Below are positions 38 through 63,550 of a stretch of 64,000 nt of DNA, in pieces. The stretch is from Morchella semilibera (taxonomy: Eukaryota; Ascomycota; Pezizomycetes; Pezizales; Morchellaceae), in contig CM018604.1 in assembly GCA_009192285.1 (NCBI GenBank), positions 2,356,001 through 2,420,000 of the forward strand. Direction: 5' to 3'. Positions within the stretch are counted from its first letter, which is position 1. Every line of letters begins with the position of its first letter. A program made the translations under genes and the position numbers. Below the pieces are notes generated by a model. It searched no databases and was not told the DNA's origin. It saw nothing but the letters and a program-made list of their open reading frames with translations.

Positions 38-1350
38 CTCTTCAAGAAATCCTCCATCGCATCTTTGGAGCCTTTCGGATCGTGCTTTTTCTTCAAATGA
101 TTCCTAAAGTTATCCAGCCTCCAAAAAATCTTTCCGTTTCCACGACAATGATCATAGCAACAATCGTAACCCACTGCTGGCCGGCTAAGGTGCCTCTTAT
201 GGACGGAATTCATGTGGCGATCTCGGTCGTTCATGGACGTAAAGCCCTGGCCCTTCCGCTTGCAATCGGGAAATTGACACTTGAATGGTTTTGTATGCTT
301 CATTTCATGTTTCCTTCAAGAGCGGCCGACAGAGAAAAGGCCAATAGCCCAGAAAGACGCAGAATCAGCTATGTACTGCAACTCATTCATTTATTTCTTC
401 CCCATTTCTTGTGCTTTTTTTTCTATGTGTAGTTAGACTAGATGCAGCCCTGCCCCGTGGAAGTAGGCATGAAAATCCCAATAGTGCTTGCATACACCTG
501 ATTGAGCTACATCTAGTCTACTTTTTTTTCTGGGTTTGGAAGGGAGTGGGGGGAGGGGTTTTTTTTTCTTTCTTTTTTTCTTTCTCCCAGTGATTTTTTT
601 CCTCCACAACTTTTGACTAATAGACGGGCTTTTTTTCTCTTACCGTCGTAATGAATCGCATTTAAACGTTGATTTGCATGTCTTGCAAGAAAACTGCCTC
701 AAATGCAACCTCGAAACCGTGCTCCCCGCCTGACTCTGCGTATCACCCATTCCGCTATTAATCTCCGACATCTCTCCCGGATCCTCCGAGTATATCTCTG
801 TTCCAGATTCAAAACCACTACGAGTATCCACGGTTGTTTCTGTCGTCGGGCTGATAGGCTGTGTTGTACGGTCCAACGATCTACTGCGGTTAATAAAATC
901 ACTATTCCAACCAGTACGGCGGTTGTAATCTGGAAATTCGCCATTATTATTTGGTGACCGTTGTGGGGGCTGCTGTTGATATTCGCTTGCTTGATTGTGG
1001 TTTATACCTTGATAAGATACGGATGAAGGATGTCCCTGTTTATATGCTCCCCATGGATCATTCTTGTCTGCTAGAAACTGTGACATTGCAGGGGCTCCTC
1101 CCGGTGCCCTGATAGCAGTGGGGGACTCCGGAGAGTAGCCAGAGTAAGGTGGGGGGCTCAATCCGTTGGGTGTAGTTGGCGGAGGTATTGGGCCGCCAGG
1201 GCGGCCGAGTTCTGGACCAAACACGGACCCGATTGATGGTAGTATATTGTACCCTGGTCGACGATAGTGTGGATGGTAGCTCATGGGCGACACGGGCATA
1301 CCAAAATTATCTCGCTCCATCCTGTTTTCTGCAGGATAATGAGGCGGCAT
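38..1350 (-). CDS. C2H2 zinc-finger protein, 3' part outside window
   Basis: Probable nuclear DNA-binding protein. The start is the ATG at 1350 because an in-frame TGA lies just upstream. Exon 1 (1350-644) encodes a 235-residue Pro/Ser/Gln-rich, probably disordered region and the first half of finger 1. A GTAAGAG donor at 643 and an acceptor at 314-315 bound a 330-nt intron. Exon 2 (313-38) completes finger 1 (C-x2-C-x12-H-x3-H, ending SLRRKHEMKH). It also carries two further fingers, one with CQFPDC and one with YDCCYDHC followed by FWRLDNFRNHLKKKH. A GTATGT donor at 37 shows that the gene continues to the left. The intron splits the Arg codon two residues before the first finger histidine in phase 2, the same place as in the genes at 38, 51, 54 and 61.5 kb. 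Fingers 2 and 3 resemble those of the neighbouring 1408-residue gene. Target unknown. Confidence 0.85.
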
Positions 1351-4935: not shown

Positions 4936-7900
4936 TTAGTGGATATAGTTGTAGTCGTCGTTATTATCCATTGGTGCCATGGCCACCCCCACCAAAGCCA
5001 TCGGAATTTCCGCGGGGAAATAACCGTACTGCCCGTGGTTCTCGATCAAGCTGTTGGCTGTAGTGACCGTCTGACTATGCATCTGATCAACCCCTAATCC
5101 AGGATTGGCTGGGAGCTGCCCAGAAGTATGTCCATAAGCAAAGTAACTCTGCTGTGGCTGGACCTGTAAATGTTGCTGCCCCGAGATTACAGGAGCCATT
5201 CTTTGGCTCGCTGGGCTATGTGGTAATGGGCGCTGTGAGTATGTTGGAGACGATGAATATCCGCTATTGATCGACGGCGCGCTTGGTCCCGTCATTGATG
5301 AGGGACTAGGGTACATATCGTTGCCGGGGTACTCGAAAGACTGATTGATTATAGGATGTAGGCCTGAGACATTTTGTATGTTATGGATGGTCTGTTCCGG
5401 ACCGAACCCCAGGCTTCCGGGTGTGGAGTATTGACCACCCTGTGGGGGTGTTGACACGTTGAAATGATTGTCCATTGGTATATGCGGCGAGCTGCGTGGG
5501 GGTGTGTGGTGTGAATTATATTTTGTATTCCCGCCTGTATATTGAATGTTATCCTCGTATTGTCTATCCGCTGTCTGCTGCCGCCGTTGACCTGAAACGT
5601 CCCCACCACCAATTGAATCGATATCCATATCGGTTGATATATGCTGCTGCTGCACCTTCGGCATCGGCGCAACTGGGGCAGTATTCGCACCTCTAGCGGG
5701 TGCTTGTTTGCCGGAACCTCTAGTGCTCGGTGGTACTACGGCATCATCCGTAATCAGATCTAGGACCGGGAGTGAGATATGTTCCATGTGCCTGGCCAAG
5801 TGCACAGTCAATTTCTTCCATGTGGCACAAGTCACCCCACAGAACCTGCATTTTTCTTCCATCGGGAGCTTTGCTGTCAACTTGTGACAGTCGTCAACAA
5901 TCTGCCACACCTTATCAAAGTCTTCTTGTGTCGGCGCCCCATCCGTTCCCGCGACGGCCTTGGCCGCCTTCCCTTTCTTCCCTGTGGACTTGCCGGCGGC
6001 TTTTGCGGCTGCTTTCTGAGCTTTGATCTTGGGTTCTGCCATCTTGTGTTCACGAACCAGATGCTGAACAAAGTTATCCTTACGGTAGCAAGTATGTGTA
6101 CAATCGGGTATGTTGCATGTCCACCACTCAAGATGTCTATGGCGCTCGTTCTCGTGGCGAACCCAGTCGGCCTTACGTTTGAAGGATTTCGGTTCGGTAC
6201 ACTCAACAAACGTACAGGTAAAGGGGTGGACATCTTCATGGACGTGCTTGGTCCAATCAGAGGGCTTTGTGAACTTTTTAACTTTGAAACAGATAGGGCA
6301 CTCGAATTCAGCTGGTAATCGAGAGACAGGAGGCTGAGGGACTCCAGAAGGGAATTGTGTTGCAGCTACTTTGCCTTCTGTGGGGGAGTGATCACCGGCA
6401 GTCTCATCGGATGAATATGCTGTAGTTCATAAGCCCAATTCCAAAACAGATTGCAAAGAGATTCATGAGCCTACCTTCGCCTTCGAAACCTTCTCCAGAG
6501 ATATTCCTCTTATGCCCATTGTTCTCCTCTTGCCCACCCGCTCCTATAGAGCCAACCCTACCTCTACATTTTGTGCTGTTACCGCACTTACCACCATTTT
6601 TGATCGCCGCAAGATGCTTTTGCCTGTGTTCAACTAATTTCTTGAACCGCTTTCCCTGTTCGTACACGATCCGTTCAACCAATTTGTGATTCAATCCTGG
6701 GGTCTTGGACTTAATATGGGCTGTAAAGCCTTCCGCATTTGGCGTGATATCTAATTTCTGCTGTCTTTGGCTAGGCGCCATTGCTTGTGGGTTTTTTCTC
6801 AAATTTTCTTCCGTAGCTTCATCGTCACTATCATCAAACCCTTGATGTCTATTTGGATCGGGAGGAGTTAGCAACGATTGAGTTACTGCTTCAAGCCCTC
6901 GCTTACTCGTCTCCTCGCCGAAGGTAAACCGGGGCTTCAGAGTCGGGTCGGGGGCACTCTGAGTACTATTGGCCGCAACAGGAGATGTCTTGATAGGTAC
7001 TAGTGGCGGTCCACCATACTGACCCAGCATACTGACAATTCCAAAGGCAGGTTTGCTATTTTTATGGAGTTTTGAACCTGCGGAGAGTTCGCTCTTGCTC
7101 CGAGCCCGACGAATTTGTTGCATTACGCTCAACCCAGTGCTTCGTTTTTCAGGTGGCGTAGGGCTGGCAGGCTTTACAGTACTAGTGGTGTGCCCGGAGC
7201 TCTGACCGATGCCCGCTGTGATCCCTGCAATACCCACAATTGCACCATGAACACTTGTATCAACCTTCAAAGTCCCAGGCTTCGACCATGATGGACGCGT
7301 TTTCAGAGGGGCGAAACTAGTAGCAGATATAGAAGAGGCAACAGAATCACCTCTCTTCCTCCCCATGCTAGCTGCATCACCAATTAACCCATCTTTTTCT
7401 TCTTCATTGCTGACGTCTGTGTTATTTTCTTTCAGTTTATCGCTGGCGTTACTATGCCCTCTCTTAAGACTTGTTCTCATGAGGGATTGCATCAGACTGG
7501 GCCTTCTTGAGTGTCCTGGTGATGCGGCATCCTTATCTTGGCTCTTCTCTTTGTTTCTGAAGCTTAACCTCCCTAGTAACCTACCATCTGTAAACCGGTC
7601 CACATCGCTAGCGCTGAGTCTCCGATGGTGTTTAGATGTCTCACTACCGAATGTGGCAACCCGGGATGCAGTTTCAATGTTTTGCGCATACTCGCGGAAT
7701 CGCGATATTGCCCCATTCGCGGTGTTAGGCTGACATTTCATTGCGCTCATGTTTGTACCACGAGGTAAAGGACCGGCCTCATCAGTCCATGGGCGCGCAG
7801 AGTAGAACTGCCCTGGATTCGGGAGTAGCGAAGGGTCGTTGTCGATACGCATCTGTTCTTCTTCATCATCTAACTCGGTTCTCTTTAAAGCCTCCTCAGT

Positions 7901-9217
7901 TGGAGGCGCCTCAGACGTATTCATTGACTCGTCATCGTCATCGAGAGATCCATCGTTCGATAAGAACCCCTCAGAGCTGTCATCCTCTTCATAATCGTAT
8001 TCCCCTGGCCTGACATCATCGTCATCTATAACCAATACGCCTGTGATGGCCCCGGCACTACTTTCTCCGACCTTTATCACTACCCCTTTATCCCCTACAC
8101 CCTTAGTCGACGAGCCCTTGTTCCTGAAATCCGAGAAACTCTTCGCCCTTCCCCTCTTTGGAGCCTTAACCGTCAAACCACCGGGCTTTCCCTCCTTCCC
8201 ATCCACTCCGTACCCAGTAGAATCACATTTCCTTAACCAATCCTTAACCTCTAAGGCCTTGGACTCATGCTGCTGGATGATTGTCTGTTCATTGAGGCTA
8301 GGTATTTCTGCAGCATCTTCACCCACTCCCAGGGCAGCACGCATTTCGGGGTCATACCCGCCGCTCCAAGCCCCATCCTCACCACGCTTATCAACAGTGA
8401 GATCTATAACTGGCGCCGTTGCCTTCACGATAGGGTTATTGGACGACGCAGAGGACGCATGCGAAATTGGAGTTGGGTGTTGTATATGCACGCCCAGCCC
8501 TTTCACAGCTGTCACGGGGGTGAATTGTTCCACCTTGATCTGTACATCCTCGTTCCCACCACCACTCCCGATACCAGGACTTGGTGAAATCGTAGGTCTA
8601 GGGCTGGGGGGAAATGCCATCAGCCCCCCACCAACACCATTTGCCGGTGTCGAGTAAACGGTCCCTGATAAACTATCATTAATCTCATACATATCGTCGT
8701 CCGCCAGCGGCGGCATCTCAACATCGTCGAAATTTGGCGTCGTTGTGAACCCATCCATGATCCTTGGCGACTCATCATCCAGACTATGGCGTCCGCCCGA
8801 GGGATGGTCGAAGTAGTTCGGGTTTGGAGAGTGATGCGACCCAGGTCCGCGAGGGAAGCTCATGCTATTGTAGAAACTACTGTTTGTAATCGGTGAGGTA
8901 GCCGATAACGTGGAGGGGGGGTTAGCTAGTAGTGAATGGTCCGGGTGGAGTGACGATGACGGCGCGGGCCGTTTGTTGTTTGGTGATCTACTATTGTTAC
9001 TCCTCACAGCTGGTAAAGCGGGTTGGTAAGGTTGTGAAAGCGACGGTGAGCCAGAGGCGTCCATGGAAAAAAGTGAACTGTCGAATGTGGGCCGTGATGG
9101 CGGGGACGCAGAAGCTGTGTAGGGATTCATTTTCGATTTTTGGCTCTTGGGTGAGGGGGCAGAGGGGGTCGAGGTAGTCATAGCTGGGTGTTGTAAACAG
9201 GTCCCGGCCTGGTTCAA
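4936..9217 (-). CDS. large C2H2 zinc-finger protein (1408 aa)
   Basis: Probable nuclear transcription regulator. Two exons, 9217-6475 and 6419-4936, are joined over a 55-nt intron (donor GTAGGC at 6474, acceptor CAG at 6420). Splicing gives one continuous 1408-residue frame. Residues 1 to about 800 are Ser/Pro-rich with acidic patches and probably disordered. A conserved-looking basic helix (LVERIVYEQGKRFKKLVEHR) lies before the intron. Fingers occupy about 955-1040: one with CPICFKVKKF, one ending KADWVRHENERH, and one with CNIPDCTHTCYRKDNFVQHL. A Lys/Ala-rich linker follows, then a further finger near 1105-1125 (CRFCGVTC ... HLARH). The tail is Gln/Pro/Ser/Tyr-rich. The CDS ends NDDYNYIH. 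The finger arrangement (xDWxRHExxRH then RKDNFxxHLxREH) is common in Pezizomycotina C2H2 proteins. I cannot give a specific gene name. The whole frame is intact. Confidence 0.9.
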
Positions 9218-12200
9218 GTCAGGTCTGAGGTGCCTAGAATCTCGAGGTTGTCAGTTGGCATTCCTTCACCTGCCCTTCTCTGATTTGCCAACCCTGCAGA
9301 TTGAAGGATTGGATATGGGACGCCGGATGGATATGATTCAATATTTTGATAAGGAGATTACAGGGTATTAACAAGCAAGATAGGGCAGGCAATAAGGGCT
9401 GTGCAATATTTATTCAGAGAGGGAAATATGAGTGCCCAGATATCTTAAAGAAGGGGATTGATCGGACAGTAAATATGAAAACAAAAAATGAAAACCAGGA
9501 TGTTTATTAAATGTTCCAGTCCTTATCCTCGTATATTTAGGGAAGGAGGGGCTCCATATCCTCGTTGGTTGGGCTGACAGATACCAGAGCCGTGGCCAGA
9601 GCCATCGACCAAGGTAAGGTGAGGTGAGATGGGTAAAAAGGCATGGAATTGAGATTGAGGGATTGAGTGGGGGGGGGGGGGGGGGGAGACAGTCCCGCGT
9701 ATATCGTGGTAGTAGAAAGAGCTCGTGTGCTCACCAGTGATAGAACGAGTGCACAGAAACGAAAAGGAAAAATCAAAAAAATCCCGTTCACTAAATGTCC
9801 CTATTTCTTTTTATTGAGCAAGAAGAGTGTCGTGATGTTTTCTCCCCCCAATAAAGTGCTGTCGCCGCTGAAAACAACAAGTAAAACAACAATGGCTATC
9901 GCCACTCCAAGTTCATTCCCGCTCGCAGTCGGCCTGGCTTGGTCTGGCCACCAAACAAATAAAAAAATGATATGGGACCTGCGCGCTGGCTGGCCTTCTA
10001 TTGGTTGGCTGATGACACAAATAAATATTTTATTCCCTTTTCCTTTCTGGGAGGAGATAATATTCTGAAAATTGGCTTATGTAGGTAAAGCTTGTATATA
10101 ACAGGAGGCAGTCGAAGGCAGACTTCCACAGAGCTCTGACTCTCAATAAAGCGGGCGGGGAGGCGACTACGTAGGTATAAATAAACGAAGCAGTTAACTC
10201 GGGGGCCAGTAGATATGCGGTAGGTAATTGGACAGGCTGCTCGAGAAGCTGGCGCAGTAGGCGGCGGTGCTATGCTATATTATTTCCCTTTGCAACGTCA
10301 AAGTGTATATTTCAACTTTAAAGCAGGAGCTCTCTATTTTGTGACGAGCTGCGGGCGGATATGAGAGAGAATGTAATGTGGGTTTAGAGACGATAAAGTG
10401 ATAGAGTGGGTACTGGTTGTGCTTTTAGTGGGTCCACAATACGACAATTGTAGGAGGTGAATATGCAGCCAGTAGTGGCGATCACAGGCCGAGGGCAGAA
10501 TGTCTGGGTACAAACCAAACAAGGAACCTATTTCCTATCTGTCAGGCACACATGGGATTTTAGCAGGGCTTTCTTGGGAGAAATTCTAGAAAAACGGTTA
10601 TATACATATGATACAGAGAAGTATGCGGAGGCCTCTAGGAGGGAGATCTTTAGGGCTAGGTTAAGCTTTACCTTTCTTTTTTATTACACCACTATAGTTT
10701 AGGAACAGGAAAGTAGTAGCACCGTAGTCTTGGGTCCGTGGTAATTGGCATGCAAGGAAGGTCGAAGCTGTGCCAATTATCGAATCACCAGCGAAAACCT
10801 CGGGGAACTGGTGGTGAGCAAGGGATTTTGCTCTAAGTAGATCCTATTGGGTGTGGGTTGGTGGGTTGAGGGTGGAGGTGGTGATGAAAGACAGATACGA
10901 TATTATTGGAATAGATTAGCGTGGGTAGTAGAGACTCGCGTGTGTGGATGAGGAGAGAATAGGTCACTCGAAAAGTCGAGTCTGTCTGCCTTGTCAGCAA
11001 GAGAGAAAGTTGGGTTGTGAGAATCTAAACCTCGATGGTTTGGGGGAGGGGCTGAGATCATATCGGAACGGCTGGGCATTACAACAACATGCCTTAACAA
11101 CGTGCACGTATCGGGCAAAGGACCTTAAATTCGAGGCGGCTCTGCGACGAATATTTCTTTAAGAAGAGATATTAGGGATCATTACTTCCTACATTCCCTC
11201 TTTTTGACGGCCAGCATGCTGGGGTCTACATGTTGTATGCATGATGACATGAAAATCAACGTGGAGAGATCAGATCGCTTAGAGGTGGGGGGGGGGGGAC
11301 CTTAGCCTTGAGCCGTCCATCAGGAGCCAATCAGAAGGTTTAGTTTTTGGCTTTCCCATTGAACCCTTCCCGCTCGCCCGCCTCTCCCTCTTCATTAAGC
11401 GCGGGCGCTGTATTTAGACGAGCGACCAGACAGTACAGTTAGTCAAACCATCTAGACCTGTACATACCTGTATGTATTTACATGTGTCTACCTTTTATCC
11501 GCTGTAGATGGTACTTTAGATCCTTCTTCTTCTGCTTTCGAGTCTCAATAAGGATAGGTGGGTACATGAACTTATGCAGAGCCAAGTAGGTACAGAGAGT
11601 GAGCAGTTGTGTGTAGCACGAAATCACAAGGCCGCCTTGTGAAACGCTACAGCGTCACGTCACATCTCTCTCCCTCACCGCGCCATCCATCTCAAGGGCA
11701 TCTCACTCGACCACTTGGTACTCTAACGAATCCCGGTTTGTCGAGTAAGCACTTGTACCTAATTGTACCTACACCCACAGTACTCTTGCCCTGCTCCTTT
11801 TGTATGTACCCCTCACGCAAATGTCCGACTTCTAGAAGAAAAAAAGGAATCGAGTGTGTATGTACCTGAGAACCACCCATCCCCAACCCCTACATAAACT
11901 CTCAGCACAGATAGTACCTACATGTACGTACCAACTAAAAGCAACAGAGTCAAGGGCACCTTATCGTATAGATACGACTGCACTGCCCCACCATCCAACC
12001 ATCCCACATGACACAGACCCTCTCCGTGATATCGATAGGTACATGTACCATCAGGTACAGGAATAACCTTGGCCCTCTCTACAGCGGATGTAGGAACATT
12101 TGCTTTCCCCGCCCCTTTGGTTCGCTCTATCCATCCAACTAACACCCATGTCAAACAAGCACCACGGAGTATCCTCCGTGAACTGCTCGAGTAAAGTATC

Positions 12201-13790
12201 GTACCATGGCTTATATCCATCTCGGTGGCAGTGCCCTGGGAATGTTTCTCTCCTCTGAGGTATCTGCTTTATCCATCCTGCCGGCAGTTGTTTCGCTCCA
12301 AATAAAACACTGAAAGGAACAGCTGTTATATTGCCAACCACAGGAGGGCCAGGGATTATCCGCTCCCTCAACTCAAACTTTGATTCCGAACATTAGAACT
12401 CTTCTAGATGTGTGAGTACAACTCCATGGATCCAATATAGCCAACCATATTTTTTTTCGAAAATGCCTGCGAGGAACACCAATATTGGTGTAAAACTACA
12501 TGTAGAATCATCTAAAGGTTAGGGCAAATACATATACATAACCTACATAAAGCTCATCGCTGCTCCATGGGGCTCTCCGCGTACTAGAATTTTTTTCGAA
12601 GTTATAACACATAGCGGCCAGCAATGCACTGATATCTAGTATGAGGATATGTACTGATGATAGCAAGACTTCTCAGTGCTGGGGACAAAAGAACTAGAGA
12701 CCACAAACTCAGGGGTATCTTTATACCAAGTCAAATGGCTACATATGATGAACGGGTCTTGAAACCTACTCGTAGCCTTACTGCATCAACAGTTAGGGTT
12801 GCCAAGACCCATGGGCCAATGATCGCTTGGTAGCATAACGTTTTTGGAGAGACAGTTCAGTGATAACGATAATAGAGACTTTGCGCAGATGGAGCCAGCT
12901 CTATATTTTGGGGTCGACACCAGCCAAGTTACCGAAAAATGGAGTTGGCTCCATTTACACAAAGCCTCCAAATCAGATAACTGATCTCAGACGAGGATAC
13001 CTTTACTAGGCGTTGTGGTGCTAAAAACCTTGGAGCAAATATCTCGAGATAGCTTAGATAGCAGGAATCCGCATACAAACCATCTGTTAGCTACACGTAT
13101 TTAATTTATTAAACTTTAACAGTTGGCTAAACTACGTACGATTCATTAAGCCGTTGTGGACAGGGAAGAATCCAACATAATTGTCTTTGCACTTAGTTTG
13201 TTCACTTATGATTCATTCAAAAACGCCAAGCTAGAGTGACTCTTTACAATATTCCTATGGCTCGAGAAGCTATGGCAGGTGTGTAAACTTGCGGCCAATC
13301 AATCTTCTCGCGTTATACATGGCCGTTCATTTCGCTTTATCTAACGCTTTTCTCTTTAACTCAGCCTCTGTACTGGTATCGTATCGTAATTCTAGATATA
13401 TGTATGTCAGGGATCGGAGCGAACATACGCTTTATGGGTTAAAAAAGAAATCTGGGACAGAAATTGTTGATCAAGCTAGTAGAGCCCATTTGGTAAGGGA
13501 GATAACAAGATCTATTGGCCAAACGATTTTCTGCTTTCTTCCTTGGGGGGGGGGGGGTCAAGTTACTGATGTAAGGTGTGATATTAACTAATCTTTGATT
13601 GCATCATGTGATCACGACCTCGGCTCCACGCACAGCTCAGAGTTACGGAGCCCGTGGCAGCTCGCGATAGAAGATTCCTGCTGTGGATAGATATATACAG
13701 CTCTGTAAATACTCTCGCGAATCTCTCTTCTTGATTGCGGTAATACACCCTATAGATCTAGTTGCCTGCAGATTAATATATACACTCAGA
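9218..13790. other. intergenic DNA, no supported gene
   Basis: This long upstream region of the 1408-aa gene contains an (G)18 run at 9669-9686, another G run at 11287-11298, CT-rich stretches and scattered ACATGTA-type palindromes (11460-12060). An open frame on the minus strand at 12051-12371 (106 codons) reads somewhat like protein (for example LPAGWIKQIPQRRETF). It has no recognisable domain and no clear splice partners, so I do not call it a gene. Confidence 0.55.
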
Positions 13791-16533: not shown

Positions 16534-18043
16534 CTACTTTTCAGCTTCTTCACCTGGGGGAAGCCGTGGCCAGGTTGCGGATGGTCTATGGCCGTTTCGT
16601 ATTCCGTCATTGTTCTGTGATGACCTCATTGGGTTAAACAAGCCCGGTCTCTGTGGCTTTCCTTCCTTTTGTGAGCTCTTCCTCTTTATAGATTTCAAGT
16701 CTTTGATATCCTTCTCCACTATTCCATAAAGATCGTCCAAAAGCTTACACCTCTCCCAGTCCTTCAACTGCCAGCAGAAATTCCTCGTTAATTGAATCAA
16801 CGCTAAAAGATCCCTATCCGACTTGACTTTCTCCTTTTTTAAATGCATGCTGAATCTCATCCACAGGTGAGATATCACCATTAAAAGACTCAATTCTTGA
16901 CACCATATCTCTCTGTAGCCCTCGGGCGTCACTGATCCGCCGTAAGAGGTGTGTCCAGTGCGGTAGACTGAGATCAGTAGGGCTCTTGATCTCTTCACGC
17001 TTAGCGGTTATGCAGAGCGGCTTTGAACCTTTATCGTTAATGGTATCTAGGTGTGCCTTGTGTTGTCTATAGAACGTGAACGCAGCTCGATGCAACACTT
17101 TTGTAAGTGTTCGAAATACTTGATCTGCTGGTCCTTCTCGAGGTGTGCTTCCTGTTGGGGTTCTATGGTAGGTGCGGCGCTCGATTCTGCCTCGATATCC
17201 CATCCGAGTCATCCTCAGACTCGCTTTCAATGTTTGGAAGGAATTCCCGCCCTACTATCAGCTCACTAGTTGGGGAGATCGGGGGGCACAGTTGTAACAT
17301 TGCCTCCGGCCGGGACTGTTGCAACTTCATGTCGAGTATCCGTACCATTAATGCCTCGGGAAGAGGTTGATTCAGGACCGGTATTAAAACCAAAACCTGC
17401 GTTCCATCCGAGACGGAATCCGTTCCTTCGGTCTCCGGCGCCCAATCTATCTCGTATCCTATCAAGAGATTGCACTATCTGGGCGTGCTCAGCAACACTT
17501 GGACAAGGGATTGATGCTCCAGCAGATCCCCGAGCATGTTCAATTGCCCAATCACATGTGCTACTACTGCTGTTGGTAGTGACTCCGCAGCACCATTCAT
17601 ATCCAGGCCTCCACTATCGCGGGGGCTAAGCAGCCCACTCGCCTGCCTCCCCAACCCGACCCCACCGACGGATTGTGCCAAAAATCACCAAGATCAAGAC
17701 TTACGCCCGTATTCAGACAAAGTCTTATATCCTTTTTTAAATTCTTTGGCGGCACCGGAAGCCAAGTCTCCTTCAATGGTTCCTGTGATTTGTGGTACTT
17801 TATCACGTGTTTCAGGGCTTTCTCACGTTTTTGGAAGGCGCAAATCTCCACTTCGCAGTACCAGATCCGATGCGTCGCTTGATGTCGGATGAAGGCGTCG
17901 ATGTTGGAGGTGGTGAAGTTCTCGGTGCATCTGGTGAATGCGCAGTGATAGCGCCTGGTTGGGACACGGCATGTCTTGGTGTGTTCTCTAGAGATGTGGG
18001 AAAGTCTAAGGGTTAACACATTTAAATTGATCGAAAGTACCAA
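16534..18043 (-). pseudogene. degenerate C2H2 zinc-finger gene (or assembly-damaged copy)
   Basis: Reading from 18043 downwards, a two-finger block (RYHCAFTRC ... HQATH, then WYCEVEICAF ... HVIKYH) is followed by a well-formed 62-nt intron (donor GTAAGT at 17704, acceptor CAG at 17643-17644). A helical segment follows (SLPTAVVAHVIGQLNMLGDL). After that the coding signal continues to the stop at 16534 but moves between frames about five times. It passes through GAGDRRNGFRLGWNAGFG, an acidic stretch NIESESEDDSDG, a coiled-coil-like segment KDQQIKYFEHLQ and KSDRDLLALIQLTRNFCW. Two changes fall in homopolymers, C6 near 17282 and A6 near 16840. Either this host gene has decayed or the assembly has indels here. 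The absence of such damage in neighbouring genes favours decay. Confidence 0.65.
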
Positions 18044-20411
18044 TTACCACTGTTACTTATAACTAGTGGCTAGCAGTAACTAATAGAGGCTGGGCTTGGG
18101 CTCAGAGCTAGGCTCTTGATTGGGTAGAATACCTATATAAACCACCATCTGTGAAGAAACTACCGCAATCCTCTCGAAAGCATCGAAGTGGGCCTGAAAG
18201 CTCGGCGGTGGTGGCGGTGGTGGCGGTCTGAGGATGATTGTTTGTATCATCCGCTCCTGGCACCAGGGATCCGTTCGTAGTCTATCTAGGTATCAATTCG
18301 AGCTCCCCGGGTCTAAATAATCGACTGCCTTATAAACTCACCACGGCGTTGTCTTGTGTCGCCCTGTCTGAATCAACGGGAATGTGGGGAACTTATCAAG
18401 ACTCCCAACGTGACGTATCTGAATGAATGGCACAGGGCAAGTCAGTACGGGTAGCTGCAGGGTCCGAGTCAAAGAGCTTTGGTTCACTAACTCATATTGC
18501 GCGCTGGGAAATTGAGATTGTACTGGCGTGCTTCGGATACAAATGTGAACGGGGGAGAGGATGAGAAGGAAAATGGACTCGTTTTCATTCTCAATGGCAG
18601 GTAAGGGACGTAAGAGAGGCAATATGTACGTTGGAGCGACCCGGCGGCGCCGCTGCGCAAAAGGAAAAAAACCCTTGTTGGATTTCTAATAATATGCTGA
18701 GGCTCTGTCCCAGCGCTTGGAGCAGATTATCTGCCGGTTCACTACCTCGTGGCCTACTGTGTTGTGCATACAGATGAGATGATGGTGGATTATGTTATCT
18801 CGAGCGACGGAAATTAATGGTTCTTTTCCCCTCAAGGCCTCTCTACATGTATTATGTAGATTAGCGGGCCACTCTACTCAGCATTCTCACGAAGACATCC
18901 AATAGCGCGGGAGTTCACGGGTTCAGGCAAGCATGATCCCGACCCGTCGTCTTTTTATCTTTCAGCTAACTCTCTTAACGGATATGATCCACTTTACAGG
19001 CAGGATCTTTTTTTTAACACTTGATCAATTGAGCTTACGTGTAGGTACTCCACTTGATTTGACCCTTGGAATTAGCACTACTTAGAGTATATTGATGATA
19101 TTGTCCGCGGTCTGTTTCTGGATTGTTGATAATGCTGCGGGTCTCAACAATGGTTACCACTAGGTGCTGAAGCTTGTAATTTGACAAGCACAAAATCCCG
19201 GTAAAGGATCACTTTTTTTAGCCAGACCAATTGTACACCCGCAGGAAAAAAGTGAAGAAGCAGCGGGTGCAACCCGTCCGAACTCCAATGCAAAATTGAG
19301 AAGTAGTATAACTAAACAACAAAATACAGAATAGATACTATTATATTCACCACTTTTATGATCTCCCTAGTCCTTTACTACTGCTGCAATTCTCTTTGGC
19401 ATGCTGTCAATGATTTTATATAGATTTCCCCCAATCCGGCCCTTCCTACTCTCCCCTAGCTTGGGCTTCAATAATTTTATGTTTTCATTTAGAGTAGCCT
19501 CTATCCACTTTCCAGACTTGCATGGCTATGGAATACTTGTGGGGTTGTATTGCAGGCACCCGGTCACGCTTCTCGCGGGCGTACTATACTAGCTAGATAG
19601 AGCAATCCAGGTTCCCATCCCATGGCCCCTCGAGCATCAATTAATATAAGCTCATCACCGAACCCTGACGATGGCGAGGTCTGTCTGTCTTATCCACTCT
19701 CCCATTCTTTCGCTTAATTACCCGTAGAACGTGGATATGGGGGAGGGCGGGACTGCCTGTTAATTATATTAAACTTAAGCTCGCGCTCGACCAACTAAGT
19801 ACATACTCGGGACGAACGAACACCCACCGGCCGGTTGAAGACACACACATAGAGGGGGGGGGAGGTACTAGCTAACCCTCCGCCCCAACCCCCATCCCCA
19901 TCTCATCCCCATCCCATCCCGTCGCGATGAGCACCTGACTTATGGTAGACTGTAAACCTTTTTTTTTTTTTCCCTCCCCAATTTCGCAATGCCGCTGGTT
20001 CCGCTGACGGTTGCTCGATCTTGCATGCTGACATAATATAATGGTTAGACTAGTGAGTGCGCCAAACCCCCCCCCCCCCACTCCCCCGGCCCCTCGCGTA
20101 CAAGCGCTGATTGGAGGGAAGGGGCGGAAATTGCGATATAGTGGGATCGGCGAGTGATGGGTTGTGAAGCTCATGGCGGGTTCCACCGGCCGGGGGGGGG
20201 GCAGGTTTTGGGAGGGTGGTACGAGGCTCTGGAATCTTTGTCGGTAGTTGTTACATTGACGTAGGAACTGTAGTAGAAGTGGGAAGTACATGTACAAGTA
20301 AGTACGTAGGTACATGTAAGAAAGTACATGTAGGGATATATAAGTATGTTTGTGGTTATTGTTACCGTCCAGACGTACTCTAGACCTCCGGGCACAGATC
20401 GGGGCTGAAGG

Positions 20412-26365: not shown

Positions 26366-28833
26366 ATGGCAGCTCGTCGCGTGAACTCGGTCCTAGAAAT
26401 AGATCAAATAGACGCTGAAGATTCAACCCAGCGCCAGCTCTTGGAATTTGCGAAATTTCATGGCCTCGACGGTGAGGAAGCCGTAAAGAGCTTTCTCAGC
26501 GCCCAGCAGCAACAGCAACAGCAACAATCAGCAGCGCACTCTCCAGTAAATATAAATGCGATACAGAGGAGCTCGGCGATTCAGATAAGCGGAGGGAGTG
26601 GCATGCAGGCAGCTCCTCCTCCTTCGTTGGCCTTATCGGGATTTAGGCCTGAATCTTGTCCGCAGCCCTCAACAATGATGTCTTTAGCTGGGGGTCAACG
26701 TATGGTAAGAGGAAACTCGGTATGCCTCCTTCTTTAGTTCTCCTGTATATCGTGAAAGAGGAAGAGGAGGATGGGAAATCCTCCAATGTACTGGAGATCA
26801 AGCGCTGAGAAGTATTTTATTATCACCGTCAGCAGACCAACCCACAGCACACCAGCCCACAACACGCCTTTGCCCTGCGTGCAGGGCGCTCACCAACGCA
26901 GTTTACCAACACCGTCCCCGTCACATCGACGGACCCACCACTCACCCAGTTCACCTCCACCCCCACAGCACCCACCTTCCAGACTCTGCATTCCCTTGGT
27001 CTCGATATAACCGGCGACACCTCAGCTGCCTTGAACGAGTACCTCGCCCAGAAGGACCAGAACGACCCATTCCCGCTCGCTCTCAGACATGAAAGCTTTT
27101 CGGGCTCCCGCTCCAACAGGGGCTACCCCCCGCCCCCGCTCACCATATTCCCGTTCAGTGCGCCGCAGATGCGCTCGCAACCATCTTCGCAGCTGTCGTC
27201 GAGCTACACCGACGATAGTGTGTTCCCAGACATGGACCTGAGCACCGGAAGCCCGCAGAATAAACACTCTCGAAGCTTCTCGCACGGCTCAGGCGAGTCG
27301 GAGCCGTTCCTGTTTGGCCATCATGAGATGAGCCGACAGGGCAGTGGGGCGAGCGGGTTCGATGCGGGATTCTCAATGCTGAGGGTCCACTCCTCAACCG
27401 GGAGTATGGGGGATATCTTCCCCGATGATATGGGGGACCATCTTCTGAGCGGTGTGGGCGGGTTCGTGGGGAATGGTGAAGATTTGGGCAGGGTTGCGGG
27501 GCAGGTTGTGTTGAAGAGACCGTCGGAGGAGCTCGATGGAGGTAGCGGGCGGGCGGACTATTACTCTCTAGGCTCAGCAGGGCTGAAGAAACAGAAGATG
27601 CTCAAGGAGGAGGATCTGAAGGAGGATGAGAGCGTGGTGAAGCAGGAGCTCATGGACCGCGAAAAGCTCAATGATCAAAAGATGGTGGAAGAGATACTGC
27701 AGCGTCCCCCTCTTTCTCCTCCTGTGGCTAAACCCGACACCCCCACAGCTGTAAAACAGCAAGGGCCAAAATCGGAACCAAAGAAGGCCCCAAACCCCAC
27801 ACCCACAACTCGACAAAAGCCTGTCACTGTTCCCCGCCCCCTTCCCACCATAAAACCGGGGAAGAACCCAAACATGTCACCCACCCTCACAACCTCCACC
27901 AAGTCCACATATGTCCGCCCCCCTCATCCACGTGTCTACTGCACACAGTGTGCGGCACATCCTGAAGGCTTTCGCGGCGATCATGAGCTGCGTCGCCACA
28001 CAGACAGAGAGCATGCGTTGACTCGTAAAATGTGGGTCATCAAGGATATCTCGAAGGGAAAGACTCTCCTTGCTAAATGCAAGGCCTGCCAAAGCGGGAA
28101 GAAGTATGGGGTTGACTACAACGCCGCTGCACACCTGAGGAGGCAACATTTCAAGCCCAAGGTGAGGGGTGGTAAGGGTAGCAAAAAGGCGGCGGCGGCT
28201 GCTGCATCGGCAGGCACCTTGGAGCACTCAGTGCCCGAGATGGCAGAGCTGAGGAAGTGGATGGTTGAGGTTGAGGTAATTGTACCGCGGGAAAAGACTT
28301 CATTCAAGAGAGGAGATCATACTGCCACCACTTCCGCTCATCAGGATGAGAGCGACACCAGCGAGGACAACGAGGATGAGGACGGCAATGACGGTGATAG
28401 TCAGGAAACCGATAATCAATCGAACATGCTGGATTCTTTCGTTCAAAACATGCCACTTAGTGGTAGCCTCCCCAGCAGTGACGGCTTTGCGTGGACCTCG
28501 TGGGATAATAGTGCAAATTTTACCTATGGTGACCAAAAGATATTGCAGCATTTCACCCATCAGTCCGGAGTCCAGGCTTCTGCTGGCACCGTATCTGTCC
28601 CCCTCACAATAACAGGAGGCGTTAACCAGGTACAACTTCAGCATACCGCCGTGCACAACAACTTGCTGCCGGCCCAACAGGCGGTAATGATGATGATGAT
28701 GCACAGCGACCTTCAGCCTAGTTCGCAGCAGATGCAGCAGCAGCTGCCATGCTTTGCTTATGAGGTTGATGGCTTCGGGGAATGCCTGACAGGACCTGGA
28801 GCTGGATCAGCTGTTTCCTGGCACTCATATTGA
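26366..28833 (+). CDS. C2H2 transcription factor with GDHELRRH / KKYG-type fingers
   Basis: Probable nuclear transcription factor, 779 aa. Exon 1 is 26366-26704, then a 128-nt intron (GTAAGA donor, CAG acceptor at 26830-26832), then exon 2 at 26833-28833. An acceptor at 26900-26901 is also in frame and would give 756 aa. The N-terminus has a helical segment (STQRQLLEFAKFHGL) and a run of eight Gln at about 46-53. A long Ser/Pro-rich region follows. The DNA-binding region spans about 483-552. Its first finger is YCTQCAAHPEGFRGDHELRR with a HTDREH end. Its second begins with CKACQSGKKYGVDYNAAAHL and ends RRQHF. This pairing is a recognisable fungal C2H2 family across Pezizomycotina, but I cannot assign a named gene. 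The C-terminus is acidic then Gln-rich. Unlike the five paralogue-like genes here, its fingers are not split by an intron. Confidence 0.88.
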
Positions 28834-38091: not shown

Positions 38092-39398
38092 ATGTCGACC
38101 GATACGAGCACCACATCCCAACTACAGGGAACACTCCCGGAGTCATTACACCAGTACAGCGTATTTTTAGGGCCTCTAGTGGGGCCTCTGATGGAACACC
38201 TATGGTTAACATTTGCCCAAAGCATCAGCGAGCTGCAAGGTACGACATTCCCCCGTGAAAAACAGCAGCAGCACTTCCTACCCACCGGCGCCCGAGGGCT
38301 GTTGACGCACGAAATCTCAAAATGTGTCGAAAATTACCTCGACCAACACACATATGACGGGACCAACTTCGCCTTATTGTCTTTCATGAACGAGTCCCGA
38401 AAAGCGGGGCCCTGGGTACCTAGACTAGATGTTCCAAAGGATAACTATGGGGATGACATGGGAGCCTCATCCTCTAAGAGCCCCCTCAATAAAAGCGTAG
38501 GGCTTTGTTGGGGGGCTGAGAATAATACAATTGGGAGGATCGAGTCTATGCATGGGATTGTTACGCAGAGTAGGTCGGAGTTGTTGGATCCGAAGCGAGG
38601 GTTCATTTTAAAGGCCATGTCGACTACCGGTGTAATTGATCAAAATCCACATGTAGATAATGCCAAACCGCGTGGATGCTCGAGTGTTGCCGATGCTCCA
38701 ACTTCAAAATCGCGGCGGGGTGTATCGCACCAGTGCACCGCGGATAATGAGCCACCTACGACAGCGTCAACACGCGCTCAACAAAGTAGTAGGACCGCGA
38801 AGCCGAGTCGGCCCAAAAGGACGCATAAATGTCCTGACTGTGGTCAGGAATTTCCGTTTGAAGCACGGCTAAAGTAAGTACTATCTATCTACCTGCTCGG
38901 TCTTTTGTGCCTTTTATTGACTGATTCCTTTAATTTAGGAGTCATCAAGCTGTTCACAATAAGAGCCAACTCAAATGCAAGGAATGCGATTCGCCCTTTG
39001 GGCGAGATAGCTCCCTCAAAAGACACCTGAACACCAAAGGGGCCTGCCAAAAGAAAAAGGAAGCAAAACGACGAAACTCATCGTTCCAGAACTCATCCGC
39101 AGGGGGAACGAGGGCCAGCAGCCATCACAACTTCTATGAGGAGCCCGCGCCTTCAACATCTAGTCTCATGGATGGAGCCTCCGTTCATAGCTCACCAGTA
39201 GATGTCCGACTTTCTACTCAGAACAGTTTCGACCACCAACAAAATCTTTGGCCTTTTATTCCGCCGAATGCAAATTCCAATAATGTACATTATGATTCCG
39301 GGTACCAAAGCAATATAGACTGTCACCAGAGGTCCAGTACAATTCATATAGACCCTGTTCTTTGGGATGGTTATGTGGGGGAGTACAACCAAAGCTAG
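38092..39398 (+). CDS. C2H2 zinc-finger protein, cluster member (413 aa)
   Basis: Probable nuclear DNA-binding protein. Exons are 38092-38873 and 38939-39398, joined over a 65-nt intron (GTAAGT donor, TTTAG acceptor). The start is the ATG of MSTDTSTTSQLQGTLPESLH; the frame is open further upstream but without an ATG that fits the gene. Residues about 20-110 are predicted helical (FLGPLVGPLMEHLWLTFAQS ... HEISKCVENYLD). A Ser/Lys-rich linker follows. Finger 1 has Cys247, Cys250, His263 and His267 (CPDCGQEFPFEARLKSHQAVH region). Finger 2 is Cys274, Cys277, His290 with Cys297 in place of the last His (C2HC). The C-terminal 110 residues are Ser/Asn-rich. The intron interrupts finger 1 in phase 2 at K261, as in four other genes here. 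Confidence 0.88.
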
Positions 39399-41702: not shown

Positions 41703-41827
41703 ACTCGTACTTTCCTGACGTTTGGAAAAATGACCGCTATTGCATGCCATACAAATACGCGCCAGGTCCAAAATTTAGTATGGTGTGCAATAGTGGTCCA
41801 TTTTCCAAACGTCAGGAAAGTACGAGT
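41703..41827. mobile_element. fold-back MITE, family A (best copy)
   Basis: ACTCGTACTTTCCTGACGTT at 41703 continues through GGAAAAATGACC to CTATTGCATGCCATAC. It is mirrored almost perfectly by the right half, ending in ACGAGT at 41827, so the whole 125-bp element folds into one long hairpin. Related sequence with the shared core CTATTGCATGCCATACAAAT occurs at 46207-46338 and, more degraded, near 49505-49692. Non-coding; a small non-autonomous DNA element. Confidence 0.75.
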
Positions 41828-42906
41828 ACTATGTAGTTGCCAAATGGGTCCCAATAAGCTGAGTGGTTACCAAGGAGACCTGGATCCATACATGTAGATA
41901 TACATACATCACATCGGCGATCTTTTTTGGCTAGAAGTATGTATTCTACTCTAGAGCACTATAGGTTCTAGGAGAGTGTACCGACTGAGTACGCATTTTA
42001 CGTACATAACGTCAAGCCCTTATCAATTCACTTCCCTTCGCTATCTTTTGTTGTTATTTCGACCACCACAAATTGTCAGGTCATTGATTGAGGTGATCTG
42101 TCCTATTCTCCTCAAGCAAGTGAATTGATTCGCGCCTGTGGCTTACTTACATGTAGGTGCACACTGAGCCTCAATGTCTAAGCATACTGTGCTATGTACT
42201 CTAGAACCTCCGAACACGTGCAATTAAGACCAGAGGAACCTTTTGGTTCCGGGTATGGTTATTTCCGAGTGAGTGTCCCCATATGATGCAGATACCTTAT
42301 GTACCTACGCTATGACACAAAAGAAAAAATGTGATACAACTTTGTTTGTCATTGACGGTGGTAACAGGTAGTGCGGGGAATGGGGCATGGAGTGAGGGAT
42401 AGAGACACCTAGGACTGACAACTTACCGTATATCGCAAAGAAAATAGTATGTAGAAGACAGTGTAGATACATACGTTGTGGAGATTTTGTCGTAGGTATT
42501 CCCGTGTCTGTGGTTGCATGTGCTGTTAATTAGCTAGCAGGTTATGACATCGAGCGATAGCCAAACCCAGAACCCATTAATGGCCCTGTTTAAAAGTTTA
42601 AAAGGGGTTTAATCTCAATTAGTTTGGTGAGATGTTTGACAAGCTTTGCTACATCTAGTTAGATCCTCGGCCCGTACCGATTCCTTACCCTGGCAGGGCC
42701 AAGCAGAGGGGTATGTGCATGTGGCTACATGTACCCACTCCCCAGAGAATTCGGAATACCGGGTACAGTTAAATTTACCAGGTCCCAGCTGGTGATATAA
42801 TGAGCTATGGATACCCACCATCTACCGTACCCGCGGCTAGTTCGTCCTATCTTTTGATAAACTCACTGTACCAAACGTTTTCGAGCAGTTTCCTTATATA
42901 TCAGTC

Positions 42907-47721: not shown

Positions 47722-50700
47722 AGTTTTGTGTGTGTATTCAGTCAGTATGTAGTGTACGTGAGTTGCTCGAGTGAGGTTGGGGAGACGCGTTAATAGAAAA
47801 AGTGACGTAGGCTTGGCGGTGTGCTGTGAGCACAAGGGGTGAAGGGAAATAAAATATATATATATATACACACCCCTGGTGATTAATTGATATTGGCACC
47901 AGTCTAGATCTACTACGATTAGTACATGTAGTAGGCAAAAGTCTACTATACTTATATACCCACATAGACTGACTGCCAACATACCTACATGTATGTGTAT
48001 TTGTCACGCAACTGTATATACCTACATGTACAGGGTTACAGCCATTCAGTTATACCAACATACAACGCACATGTATCTACCCCCCCCTAGCAATTTGCAA
48101 CACATGTAACTACCCTAATATATTCTGAGATATAATTACCGGCATTGGTACAAGTCACTTTCCATACCAAAGCTGGCGACGTGACTACTATTGCGATCTT
48201 GTCACGCAACCATAATTGGGAATTAAAATGCGTAACACCACCCTGTGATCCGTTCCGAATATATATGATAGGTTTTTTTCTTTTTTCTTTTTTTCTTTTT
48301 TTCTTTTTCTTTTTTTCTTTTTCTTTTTTTCTTTTTTTTTTAGATCAACCACCAATATTCATTGGGTATTTGTTTATGGCGGATGTGATCATGAGTGAGG
48401 GCATGCGCAGGAGCCTAAGGCGGAGTAATGAGTTTGCGGGTTTGAGGTCGCGCTAGTGTTCGGATGCAACTGAAACCTGTAATCGGCTGGAAGACAGACT
48501 TTTATTCCCCTGCTTTACACTTCAATTTAGGTATTTTCGATTCGAGCCTAGGAGAGGGCGAGTTGTTGAGATTTATCTTGGTATTAGTTTTGTCCATAAT
48601 CTTCTATCTTTATGGGTGGAAATTTCAGGTAGGTGGTTAGGTGTGACAGTGCAGCGACCTGGCAGAGTTATTAATACGTATATCGTATATAAAACGGCTT
48701 CATAGCCGATAACGTTTTTGAGGCGAGGCAGTACTCCACGCTCGCCTTATATAAGTAATTGTGCCTTTAGAATTTCACTGAGGTACATCATTTAACAAAC
48801 CCTTTCCCCTCTATACCCAGTCGTTAATTAAAAGTCGGGATAAGCGTTTGGTTGCAACGATATCCGACGACCTAGTTAACGCGCGAGTAATTCATTATAA
48901 AAAATACACGTGTAGCTATAGGCTTTGGGAAAAAACAAAAACCAAGGCAGCGTCACGTCGTAGGCCTATGTGGCATACATGTACTACATGTATTGTAGGT
49001 AAGCCTGCCATAACCAAGTGCAAAAAAAAAAAAAATGAGCTCCACTGTGATGGAGCTCAGGGAACAAAACTACCGATTGCTGCGAAATGTGAGGATTCGT
49101 AAGGGGCCAAAACCACATTATTCAAAGAAATTTGGTGGTCCAAATACCATGTTTTATGACTCATTATTCTACCATACAAGTCCGCAAGTTCGAGCGAAGC
49201 CTAAATGTTTGGAACAAGCTTAAGTTGGTATATACTCGCAACAGGTAACAAGTACCCGAAAATGTAGCTGCACCGCGTTGGTGTATTTCTCTCTTTTAAC
49301 CTAATAGGAATTGCATCTCAAGACTTGCATATTCGGGTATCTCTTGCCTACAGCGAGTAAAATACCTTGTATGTGGCCATCGATCTTTGGCTCGATCCAA
49401 CGGGCAGGCTGTCAAAAGGAACGCCTCTTCCGTTTATCGTTAATGAGACGATTGTGGAGTATAACTATGAGTGCATTGTCGGACTCATGTGATTGGACAT
49501 CCAGCCGTAAGAATGCGTTGTTGTTTCTGGACCGATAATGCAATCGAATTCAAATACAGTTATAGTTCCCATCACAACCATATAACTACATGTAGCTGTC
49601 TGCAGTAAGTAATTACTCTTCGTTTCATAATGTTGACTGGGCTCGGTCCGCATACCACGCGCGCAGTCCTGAAATGTTATGAAGTTACCAGTGTATATAC
49701 TTTACATGATCTTTCATAAATGTATACACGACGAGCCATGGCTTCTCACTCGGTTCGCCGAAAACGAAACAAGACATGCAGCCAGTACGCGAGGAAACGT
49801 CATATTACATGCCTATATGGATTAACCGGCGATTTGCTTATGAGACTGAGAACGAGGCTCTTAAGCCTGAATAGAAATTTTTGTTTTTTTGGTGTGTAAG
49901 TACGCTCAGCTTGTTAAATGCGCGTGCAGCACTGAGTGTGTTGTTTTGATTTATGACCTGTAAGGTGGCCAACGCTCGATGAGCGTATCAGAGGGGCAGG
50001 TAAGAAGAAACACTTGACCATTGTCTTTAATCAGAAGTTGGAGCATGATCTATAGATCGCCGAGCAACTTGACCTGCTCTAACCAGGCCTAGGTTGAATT
50101 CAAAGCTTGAGGTTTATTTGTTTATTATGCGATACTCATGTATGTTATGCGTTGACATGAAAGTGAGGCTCTTAGCCTAGGCCCCGATCGATTCAGTTGG
50201 GTGGGCGATAATGACAGTTGTGTGTTAGCCGATAGTTACTGTGGAAGCAAGCCTTTGATTATCCGCTGTTTAATTCTGATTCATGAAGAAGGAGAAGAAG
50301 CAGAAGAAGAAGAAGGAACGGCTTGAGAATAGGAGGGAGCAACTATATACTACAGGAGGCTTTTTTTTTTTTTTTTTGTATGTACTACACTATAGCTATG
50401 TATGTAAACCCTATCGGATGATCATGAGATACAACCTACTAGAAGTAGGGTTTCTCTAGCTAGACCCATGTATATGTACCTTACTTTCTCTCCTCTTGAT
50501 CTTCTCCTCTCATCCTCCTCCCCCCCCTCCCTCCTCACCGGCTCTTTCACCCCCAGTCGTGCTTTCTACCCTCCCCGCTTCATAGGAAGACGCGTGAAAT
50601 TGTATTCTTAGGGGGAAAAATATATATATATATTCTCACGTGCACATCGCACGTACAGACCTGCATTTGTTGTATATTAGGTTAATAACGTCCTCTGTGG

Positions 50701-50988: not shown

Positions 50989-52695
50989 ATGGACCCACGA
51001 GACGATAACGAATACCTCTGGTTGACCTCAGACGTCATCGCCGCAATAGAAGAGCGATTGAACCCCGAACATCTTGCCTTTTCCCCACCACCAACTTGGG
51101 CCTGTAAGCAGCTCGAGATTGCCCTGAAGGATGCTTATAAGAAGAAGTTTCCCCAGGCTGCATACGAACCACAATATAAGGGACGCGCCCAGGAAATTGC
51201 TGAACAAGAGCTTAACAATATCTTGAGGATGAGATTGAGGAAGCTGTCTAAAGATGATAAACCAATAGATCGGTGGGAAGGAGGTAGGATCGCGGATGAG
51301 CCTTTCAATATTCTCCCGATCACCGGGGCGGCGGCGCTGAATGTTGGAGTTGGACGTCCAACACAACCATCTTACAAGAAACAAACTAGTCGTAGTCCAC
51401 CTGCGACGACCCAGCCAACATTATCTTCACAATCGCACTACACGCCGGCAAGTTCAAGTACTAGTATTAGTACTGGTAGAGGTACATCTACAATAAATGG
51501 CAATAATAGCGGATCCCCACTTCACCAGAGAACCACGAGCAGCCCGGGCCCATCACTCCCGAGTGCAACCAATGCAACCAATGGAAGCGTCCGTCAGCGA
51601 AGAGGTCGTGGACCAGGCCAACGCCTGGGTCAACCCAGCGGTAGGGGTCCTCATGTTTGTCCCTTTCAGGGGTGTGGTAAAAGCTTTCAGTACCCTTCGA
51701 AGCTGAAGTAAGTATACAGCTCCGGCCAACAAAGGACGATGAATATGAAATAGAGGTATTTTTTTTTCTAACGGTAGCATTTCAACAGAGATCATAAACA
51801 TACACATTTAACCGCAAAGGAATTTTCCTGCAGGCTTGGATCATGCACTAAGAGCTTCAAGAGGCAGCGCGAACTTAAGGCGCACGAAAAGATCATACAT
51901 CCTGGTCATCCACCAGAACTGGGGGCAGGTCATCCTTCGGAATCGGAGGTGGGGGATCAGGATATGCCCGATGCTGGGGAACCGGAGCCCGTGGAAGATC
52001 AGATGAAAGCGGCGGGTGGTCGGGATGAGAGTAAGACGGTTGATATTGAGACCGATCACAGGAGAAAATCTCCACATATAAAGCAACGCAGACCCCCAAG
52101 CAAGACCCCCGAAGCTGAGGAAATCCGGTCCTCCCCCCCACGCTTGACGGCAGAGGGGCAGCTACCCCGGGGCCTGAATCCCTTCCTTCCCCGGTTCACA
52201 AACGACATCATTCCCTGGTTCCCGAACGACATTCTTCCCTGGCTCCCGAACGACATTCTTCCCCGGCTCCCGAACGGCATTCTTCCCTGGCTCCCGAACG
52301 ACATTCTTCCCTGGCTCCCGAACGACATGCTTCCCTGGCTCCCAAACGACATGCTTCCCTGGCTCCCGAACGTCACTCCCCCCCGGTTCCCGAGCAACAC
52401 TCCTCCCCGGTTCTTGAACAACCCCCTCCATCGGAGCCTAAGCAAGGCTTCCCCCAACCCCCACCCCGGACTTCCGATCCCACATTGCCTGCTATGCCAT
52501 CGACCGATGAACATGGGCCCAGCCAAGAAAGCGAAAGCAAACCCAAGCCCCGCGAAAGGTAAATCCATGCGCCCCTGATGCACCCAATTCTTGTGCTAAA
52601 CTTAGTATTTTTATCATAGTAGACCTAAGGAGATCGATCCAGGACTCCATATTGACAAGTTGGCGGTTAATAATCTAATAGGTGGCTATCAGTGA
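50989..52695 (+). CDS. C2H2 zinc-finger protein with 8-residue tandem repeats (491 aa)
   Basis: Probable nuclear DNA-binding protein. Preferred exons: 50989-51707, 51789-52030, 52120-52558 and 52620-52695, giving one 492-codon frame. The N-terminal 100 residues are helical (TWACKQLEIALKDAYKKKF ... EIAEQELNNILRMRLRKL). A Ser/Thr/Pro-rich linker follows. Finger 1 is Cys224, Cys229, His242, His246; finger 2 is Cys254, Cys259, His272, His277. From about 347 to 418 nine near-identical octapeptides (PERHSSLA) are encoded by a 24-bp minisatellite. The tail ends IDKLAVNNLIGGYQ. Intron 1 splits finger 1 in phase 2 at K240, as in the paralogues. Intron 2 (GTAAGA donor, weak GCTGAG acceptor) is the least certain. 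If it is retained the frame runs to a stop at 52578, reading the repeat as LPWLPNDI-type units and losing the last exon. Confidence 0.78.
52192..52413. repeat. 24-bp coding minisatellite, about nine copies
   Basis: The unit is roughly CCCGAACGACATTCTTCCCT followed by GGCT. The head-to-tail copies diverge by a few bases, mainly where CTGG/CCGG and TCT/GCT alternate. The array lies in exon 3 of the 51-kb zinc-finger gene, after the fingers. Because 24 is divisible by three, copy-number change keeps the frame. Confidence 0.9.
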
Positions 52696-54144: not shown

Positions 54145-55898
54145 ATGCTATCTGAGGCTACTCGACCCCCATGGCTCTATCAGAAACACAAGCTCGAAGA
54201 ATTTGTTCAAGAACACAATTGGACCCTGAATATTGTACAACTCCGATGCGATCGAAATCGATGCCAACTTGTCGACAACATCCTTGAGAAAATCGCCTTG
54301 AAGGAGCGCCTAAACCCTAGCGAATTTGAGAAGGGCCTTGCAAGAAACCATCTAGCGGTCGACCTCCAAAATATCCTTCAACGATGGTGCGACATCGGGT
54401 TGCAGAAAACAATGGAGGGATCTGCCCTTTTGGGTAGTGCGCAAAAACCTGCTATCAACCAATGGGCCCCTGTTATACATGTGGAGAGATCCAGTACTGT
54501 GCCGAAAGTAGAGGTTGCAAGTCCTGAGGCAACTACGTTCAACTATTTTGGGAGTGGGGACTCCTACCAGCAGCCACGAACACGGGATACATTCCCATCT
54601 CCGCAACAGCTACCTTTGAGCTCCCGGCCGGTCAAGAGACCGCTGGATGATGCTGATCAAAATGACGATGTCACAAAAATGCCTAGAATAGATCGGGCAT
54701 CATCGTTCACATGCCCATACTATGCTCGGAATAAACACTCTCCAGATCACGCACAATGCGCGGATAAGACCTTCCCAAACCCCCGTAAACTAAAGTAAGT
54801 ATAACTTCCGTTCATCGGTTTTATAATGGCTTTGTTTAGATATTTGTAGCTCACGTATTGTCAACTTTTCTCAGGGAACATGTCTGGCGGTGGCTTAAAC
54901 CTTTCAAGTGCGCAAACTGCGGTGAAGGTTTTGGTCGTGAGAAGACGAGAGCTATTCACTGCGAGCAACGCAAAACCAAATGCAAGAAGGCTGTGTCAAC
55001 TTATGAGCATAGCGCTGAGTGGCACCGCGATCTGCAAATAGAGTCGGCAAAGAGTACTGATGAAATGATCCGCATATTTGATGAATACGAAAAGAAAGTC
55101 ACCGGTTAGTTACCTCACGGTCTTTACTACTCTCGAGTAATAGGATAGAAGACCAGTTGAGGGGCTCACAACATTAATATAGAATCAAAATCTCAAAATC
55201 CCAACAATCGTGAAGGGAGCAGCGCAGAATCAGAAGGAAGCTCCTCGAGTCCCGAACCCCAAAATGATTCCCCGAATAGTTTAGGATACAACCAATCGGA
55301 CAGCGAAATGGATGGCTCAGGGGGTGAGCCAAAATATGAAGCCCCAAGGCGAGTGGAGTTAGTAGAGCGAGGACCCCCTATGGCCGCTCGGCCACGTTCA
55401 GAAAGTCTCCATCAAACTCATATTCTGCGGGAGGGTTCAGGGCCTACCCTCGAAGGTTTGACCCATGATTGCTCCAGCGGAACGACAAATGGACACCAAC
55501 TGAGCCCAAGCTGGCCACAGGGAGGCGATCTAAATCAGTTTAACCCACCACAAACTCGCCGGAAGAGCGAGCCGTTGGTCCATTATTCGTCAATTACTTC
55601 AAACAATTTCTCCCAGGGACCAGGCGTAGGGTCCGCAGGGGTGCCGCAAATTACTATCACTCATCATGAACCGCCTCTGGATTTTGGGATTCCGTTTGAG
55701 CCAGAAATGTACCAAATGCAGAATGAAATTAGAGAAACTTCGTGTATGACGGATCCAATGGATGAGGGATCTCAAAATGATTTTTCCGACATTGGCCGGG
55801 GATTACAAATGGCAAATAGAAGTGGATCGCAAACAGTTATCCTACACAGTCCTGGATATGGAAGCATTCCGTCGTTTAACACTCGATTTAGGTTTTAA
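54145..55898 (+). CDS. C2H2-type zinc-finger protein with atypical finger 1 (531 aa)
   Basis: Probable nuclear protein. Exons are 54145-54794, 54875-55104 and 55183-55898; introns of 80 and 78 nt with GTAAGT and GTTAGT donors keep one 532-codon frame. The N-terminal 90 residues are helical (VDNILEKIALKERLNPSEFE ... LAVDLQNILQRW), then a Pro/Ser linker. Finger 1 is atypical: Cys190 and Cys205 are 14 residues apart, as in a fungal type starting CPYYARN, and His219 is followed by Trp223/Leu224 where the last His is expected. Finger 2 has Cys229, Cys232, His245 and a closing Cys253. A helical stretch follows (DEMIRIFDEYEKKV), then a 240-residue disordered Ser/Gly/Gln-rich tail. Intron 1 splits finger 1 in phase 2 at K217, matching the paralogues. 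Lies head-to-tail 1.45 kb after the 51-kb gene. Confidence 0.88.
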
Positions 55899-61549: not shown

Positions 61550-63550
61550 ATGTCTGATAACCGGGGTAGGGAAGATCAATCTAGACAAATGTTGCCTTGT
61601 ATGTATACACTCATGTCTCCATATCACGTTTTTTTCAAAACACCCTATAAATACGACGTCTGTGTCTAAACCATGGGGTTTCTTATGAACAGCGGCCCAT
61701 CAAGACCCCCCATGGGAGCACATACTTCCGGTCGAGCACCCTGACCTAGCTTCCCGCCACAATGTCGAAAAGGGGACCCGTTTGCAATCTGAGATCGAAG
61801 ACATAGATCACGCATTTTCAGATTCGACATCCCCTGAGGCCACAATGGATCAACAGACACTGAAGAAATGGGAACAATCCAAGGGTTATGACAACACTTA
61901 CTCCACCGGAGCCCACGACCGCTACAACTCAAGATGTGGTCGGAGCAACTCACTCCAAGAACTTCATTTCAGCAACGATACAGATACAGACACGTCTTAT
62001 ACTTTAACACTCGGTGGTGGGGCTGGCGGTGGTTCGGCACCTGTATCTCACTCGAGTCCTGATGAAATGACCGAATCGTCAAGCACCATGGATCCAAACT
62101 TTCCAGAAACAGTTCGAAGTAATAGCCCCCAATCTGACAGTGGGCCTTCCGATCGCGGTGGAAATTCTAGTGGTCAAGGTATTATGGGCAATCGTCCCCG
62201 GCCTTTCTCAAGGAAGTCCAAGGCTGGAATCGAGCATACTGTCACCCCTGCCCGCGCAGGCCCTGACGGAGGGTTTATTTGCAAGTTTATAGAACGGGGG
62301 AAAATCTGTGGACAATCATTCAAACTTCCCTCGGACATAAGGTTTGTTTGAAGCCCAATCTGCACGTTTTTTTCTGGATTTGATCTCTCATCGACATCTT
62401 TTCTATAGATTCCATCTCATTGAAACCCATATGACATTTTCTCCGTTTCAATGTGACAGATGCAAACGAGTGTACACGAGGAAATCTCTTTACACTCGAC
62501 ATCTGAAGGAAGTTCCTCAGGATAGTTCGACAGCAAGGCGAACTCGCCAATGTCCCCACCGCCTCGTCGAACAAGACGAATCTTACCGTATTCGAAAGAA
62601 TACCTATGAAGCTCTTTGGGCAATCCAACTAAGCCAGGAGCAAGTTGACATTGCGGCCAACATCATTTCACAATACAATGGAAAGCTTCCTGGCCGACGG
62701 AGACGTACGCAAAGCACCACTGAACCTGAGCTTCCCGCTGTTGTTTGTGCGGATACTTCACCACCAGCTAGCCACTCCTCCCGGCAGCCTGAAACTGGTA
62801 AGACTCACACATAAGCCACTTTTCTCTGTCATATTCTAATCTATTGGCTTCTGAAGGGTTTCCTGCCCACCAGAATTCACCATATGATTCCCAACCTGAG
62901 CCAGCCTACGCCCCACACATCATGAGGGTTTCCAGTGCCCCTAATCTTTACGCCCAAAATACAGTTACAGACTCAACGGGCAGCCGTAGACCTTCCCCTA
63001 TCCCATGTTTTAGCACAGGTCCTAGCAACTCGTACGAGGCGCTTCCCCCCTTCCATGGTCAACAAGATCCAAGTACTCTTGCTACGGGTACAACAGGTTA
63101 CGGCCGACAGTATTTGGCCCCTACCGATGCTCTTTACTCTTCGCAATCAAGGACACCTGGTTACTACGAAGCTCCGAGAGCATTCTCGACTTCATCTGAA
63201 GGTATAGCTCCTCACGTACTACAGGGTCGCCAAAGTTCCTGGGATGATGCAGGCGTTGAATCAAGTTACGAAACTACTCCCTGGTCCTCAGGGTCCCGTT
63301 CCGGATACCGCGATCCTATGACGTTCGAAAGCACTAGCCAGACCTCGAGTTATCAGTTTTCAACTGTGAGTAATATGCTTGGATTTGCTGGAGTGGTTGG
63401 CTTCTCAGTGTCCTAATGAATGCCGAACTTCATCAGGCCCCTCACAACGATCAAAGTTCCCAGGGATTCAGTCATGAGCTTAGTCCAAGGAGATGTAGTT
63501 ATCAAGGTGCACATCGTGATAGCAGCCCAAAGCAGAGGGATAGTTTGTAG
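61550..63550 (+). CDS. C2H2 zinc-finger protein, cluster member (569 aa)
   Basis: Probable nuclear DNA-binding protein. Five exons: 61550-61598, 61693-62341, 62409-62797, 62857-63365 and 63437-63550; all junctions are in phase and give 570 codons. The start is the ATG of MSDNRGREDQSRQMLP. This short first exon is spliced (GTATGT donor, AACAG acceptor) to AAHQDPPWEHILPVEHPDL; exon 2 alone has no suitable ATG. Residues 20-200 are Ser/Thr/Gly-rich. Finger 1 is Cys213, Cys222, His235, His240 with an eight-residue gap between the cysteines. Finger 2 is Cys248, Cys251, His264, with Cys281 the only later ligand candidate. A basic segment GKLPGRRRRTQ follows, then a Ser/Pro/Tyr-rich tail. Intron 2 splits finger 1 in phase 2 at R233, the position shared with the other cluster members. 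Confidence 0.9.

Follow-up and report, generated by a model that had tools for sequence, protein, structure and literature searches.

A stretch of 64,000 nucleotides from Morchella semilibera (hereafter the window; contig C2, positions 2356001-2420000) contains an unusually dense group of zinc-finger regulator genes of the C2H2 type. It lies mid-contig on C2 (5.71 Mb), in a genome of 56.76 Mb and 23 contigs. Cluster loci are found on the reverse strand at 1..1350, 4936..6426, 6404..9250 and 16534..18182, and on the forward strand at 26366..28833 (E 4.4e-22), 38092..39398, 50989..52578, 54145..55898 and 61550..63416. With the curated PF00096 score cut-off of 25.2 applied to the whole protein, the loci at 4936..6426, which has relatives within the cluster, 38092..39398 and 50989..52578 score 26.1, 32.7 and 28.4 bits, while 61550..63416 stays below the cut-off at 21.6 bits. 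The locus at 54145..55898 lacks a Pfam match, and 16534..18182 holds a finger piece without a detected relative. Under uniform gene placement, C2H2 genes clustered this tightly are a rare event; the density claimed by an earlier, sequence-only reading of the window stands, but some of the loci are weak, and that observation is confirmed in part.

A phase-2 intron splitting the finger is the same in 8 of the 10 cluster genes, compared with 2 of 32 genes elsewhere, and this common gene structure points to a probable local paralogue array. In sequence comparison, type A members are nearer to one another than to genes elsewhere; type B members are not, and their kinship is drawn from the common intron. 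On this footing, kin genes are physically clustered. Exon-by-exon searching puts spliced neighbour genes at a disadvantage when relatives are sought. That unrelated C2H2 genes gathered here by chance is very unlikely, given the rarity of such clustering under uniform placement and the uneven distribution of the split-finger intron, and for type A it is already contradicted by mutual sequence kinship. Recent tandem duplicates were looked for and none was found. Many of these genes look like ancient, strongly diverged copies of a single gene, and a fast-evolving defence family looks like a poorer fit.

DNA-contact residues were compared on a finger alignment built by hand. At helix positions -1, 2, 3 and 6 of type A, mean pairwise identity is 0.47 versus 0.13 at neighbouring helix positions (permutation P 0.0019); position 6 is Lys in 6/6 first fingers and Arg in 6/6 second fingers, and position -1 is Arg in all six third fingers. 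Contact residues are therefore not the most variable sites in type A, but the more conserved ones. In type B, the corresponding identities at contact and non-contact positions are 0.21 and 0.25. Positive selection in vertebrate poly-zinc-finger expansions is reported to be concentrated at -1, 3 and 6, with none in two insects (PMC2604467). The conserved type A contacts make an arms race less likely, in a contrast that sets recent vertebrate paralogues against old ones here. The family had been called rapidly evolving, a description that fits poorly with the age of its paralogues, the missing recent duplicates and these conserved type A contacts.

These data bear on the idea of a birth-and-death cluster of the animal KRAB-ZNF kind, in which the fingers would experience diversifying selection directed against transposons. 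The genes are indeed clustered and divergent, one copy is decayed, type B contacts are variable, and the genome holds a MITE family and a Plavaka element, a transposon that itself carries a C2H2 finger. However, recent duplicates were not found, the proteins have few fingers each, type A contacts are conserved and no known effector domain occurs in the cluster proteins among the Pfam models scanned, leaving this explanation very unlikely. Equally improbable is its specific form, a fungal counterpart of the animal clusters in which a lineage-specific array from one split-finger founder would include type B copies still shifting target specificity, for example against finger-carrying Plavaka-type transposons. 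The element in question is L037 (C17:139801-142800), whose Plavaka transposase (PF18759, E 2.8e-78) bears a C2H2 finger at its N terminus; L038-L040 resemble it by eye. PF00096 counts for the genome therefore take in transposons. The cluster fingers were themselves considered as Plavaka fingers and rejected, no PF18759 transposase being present in the same protein. The MITE-like palindrome lies at 41702-41828 of the window (about 127 bp, with 54-bp arms 89% complementary). Across the genome it has at least 88 matches in both orientations, with 40 of 119 candidates scored, and the best copies are 86-98% identical.

The simplest account is that ordinary DNA-binding regulators were duplicated locally long ago and that the copies were retained while diverging. 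DNA binding and regulation by the cluster proteins would follow by analogy with their finger family, and a role in genome defence has no direct support. The sequence-only interpretation is borne out in part, with a probable old local paralogue array in place of a fast-evolving defence family. The finding is sound but moderate. Local C2H2 paralogue arrays are characteristic of animal genomes, and smaller-scale cases have been reported from some fungi (PMC12295980). An intron shared inside the finger may persist beyond sequence similarity and could help to follow ancient C2H2 expansions beyond the reach of alignment; should the array prove lineage-specific, it would offer a test case for regulatory rewiring in fungi.

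Neighbour genes at 13671-14880 and 46701-48003 of the window code for an acyl-CoA thioesterase (PF13622, PF20789) and for a protein whose helix-hairpin-helix match is sub-cut-off. Elsewhere, the search for a mating-type (MAT) alpha-box turned up a single sub-cut-off hit at C22:2196089-2196352, in a 415-aa open frame that is possibly a mating-type gene. Matches at almost identical coordinates in the contig pairs C9/C10, C12/C13 and C21/C22 suggest second-haplotype contigs in the assembly.

The DUF7896 family (PF25438) is one of the nearest known groups for comparison. In ascomycetes, Zn2Cys6 regulators predominate and C2H2 proteins form a smaller class (PMC3998117). The pezizomycete Pyronema confluens is credited with 25 zf-C2H2 and 63 Zn_clus genes, and the accessible portion of that report mentions no C2H2 cluster, unlike the dense group described here (PMC3778014). 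Its Zn_clus total is similar to that of this genome, where 61 of 72 matches lie above cut-off, and we therefore claim no genome-wide C2H2/Zn2Cys6 inversion. Among Basidiomycota, tandem duplicates make up 23% of C2H2 genes in Volvariella volvacea and 14% in Pleurotus ostreatus, in the sections available (PMC12295980). Such tandem or proximal duplicates represent local duplication of fungal C2H2 genes, as here, which is therefore not new by itself; those sections mention neither a split-finger intron nor an array like this one. Vertebrate KRAB/poly-zinc-finger genes are likewise physically clustered (PMC2604467, PMC2443715), but they comprise recent paralogues under positive selection at helix positions -1, 3 and 6 (PMC2604467), whereas the paralogues found in the Morchella cluster are old, with few fingers and conserved type A contacts.
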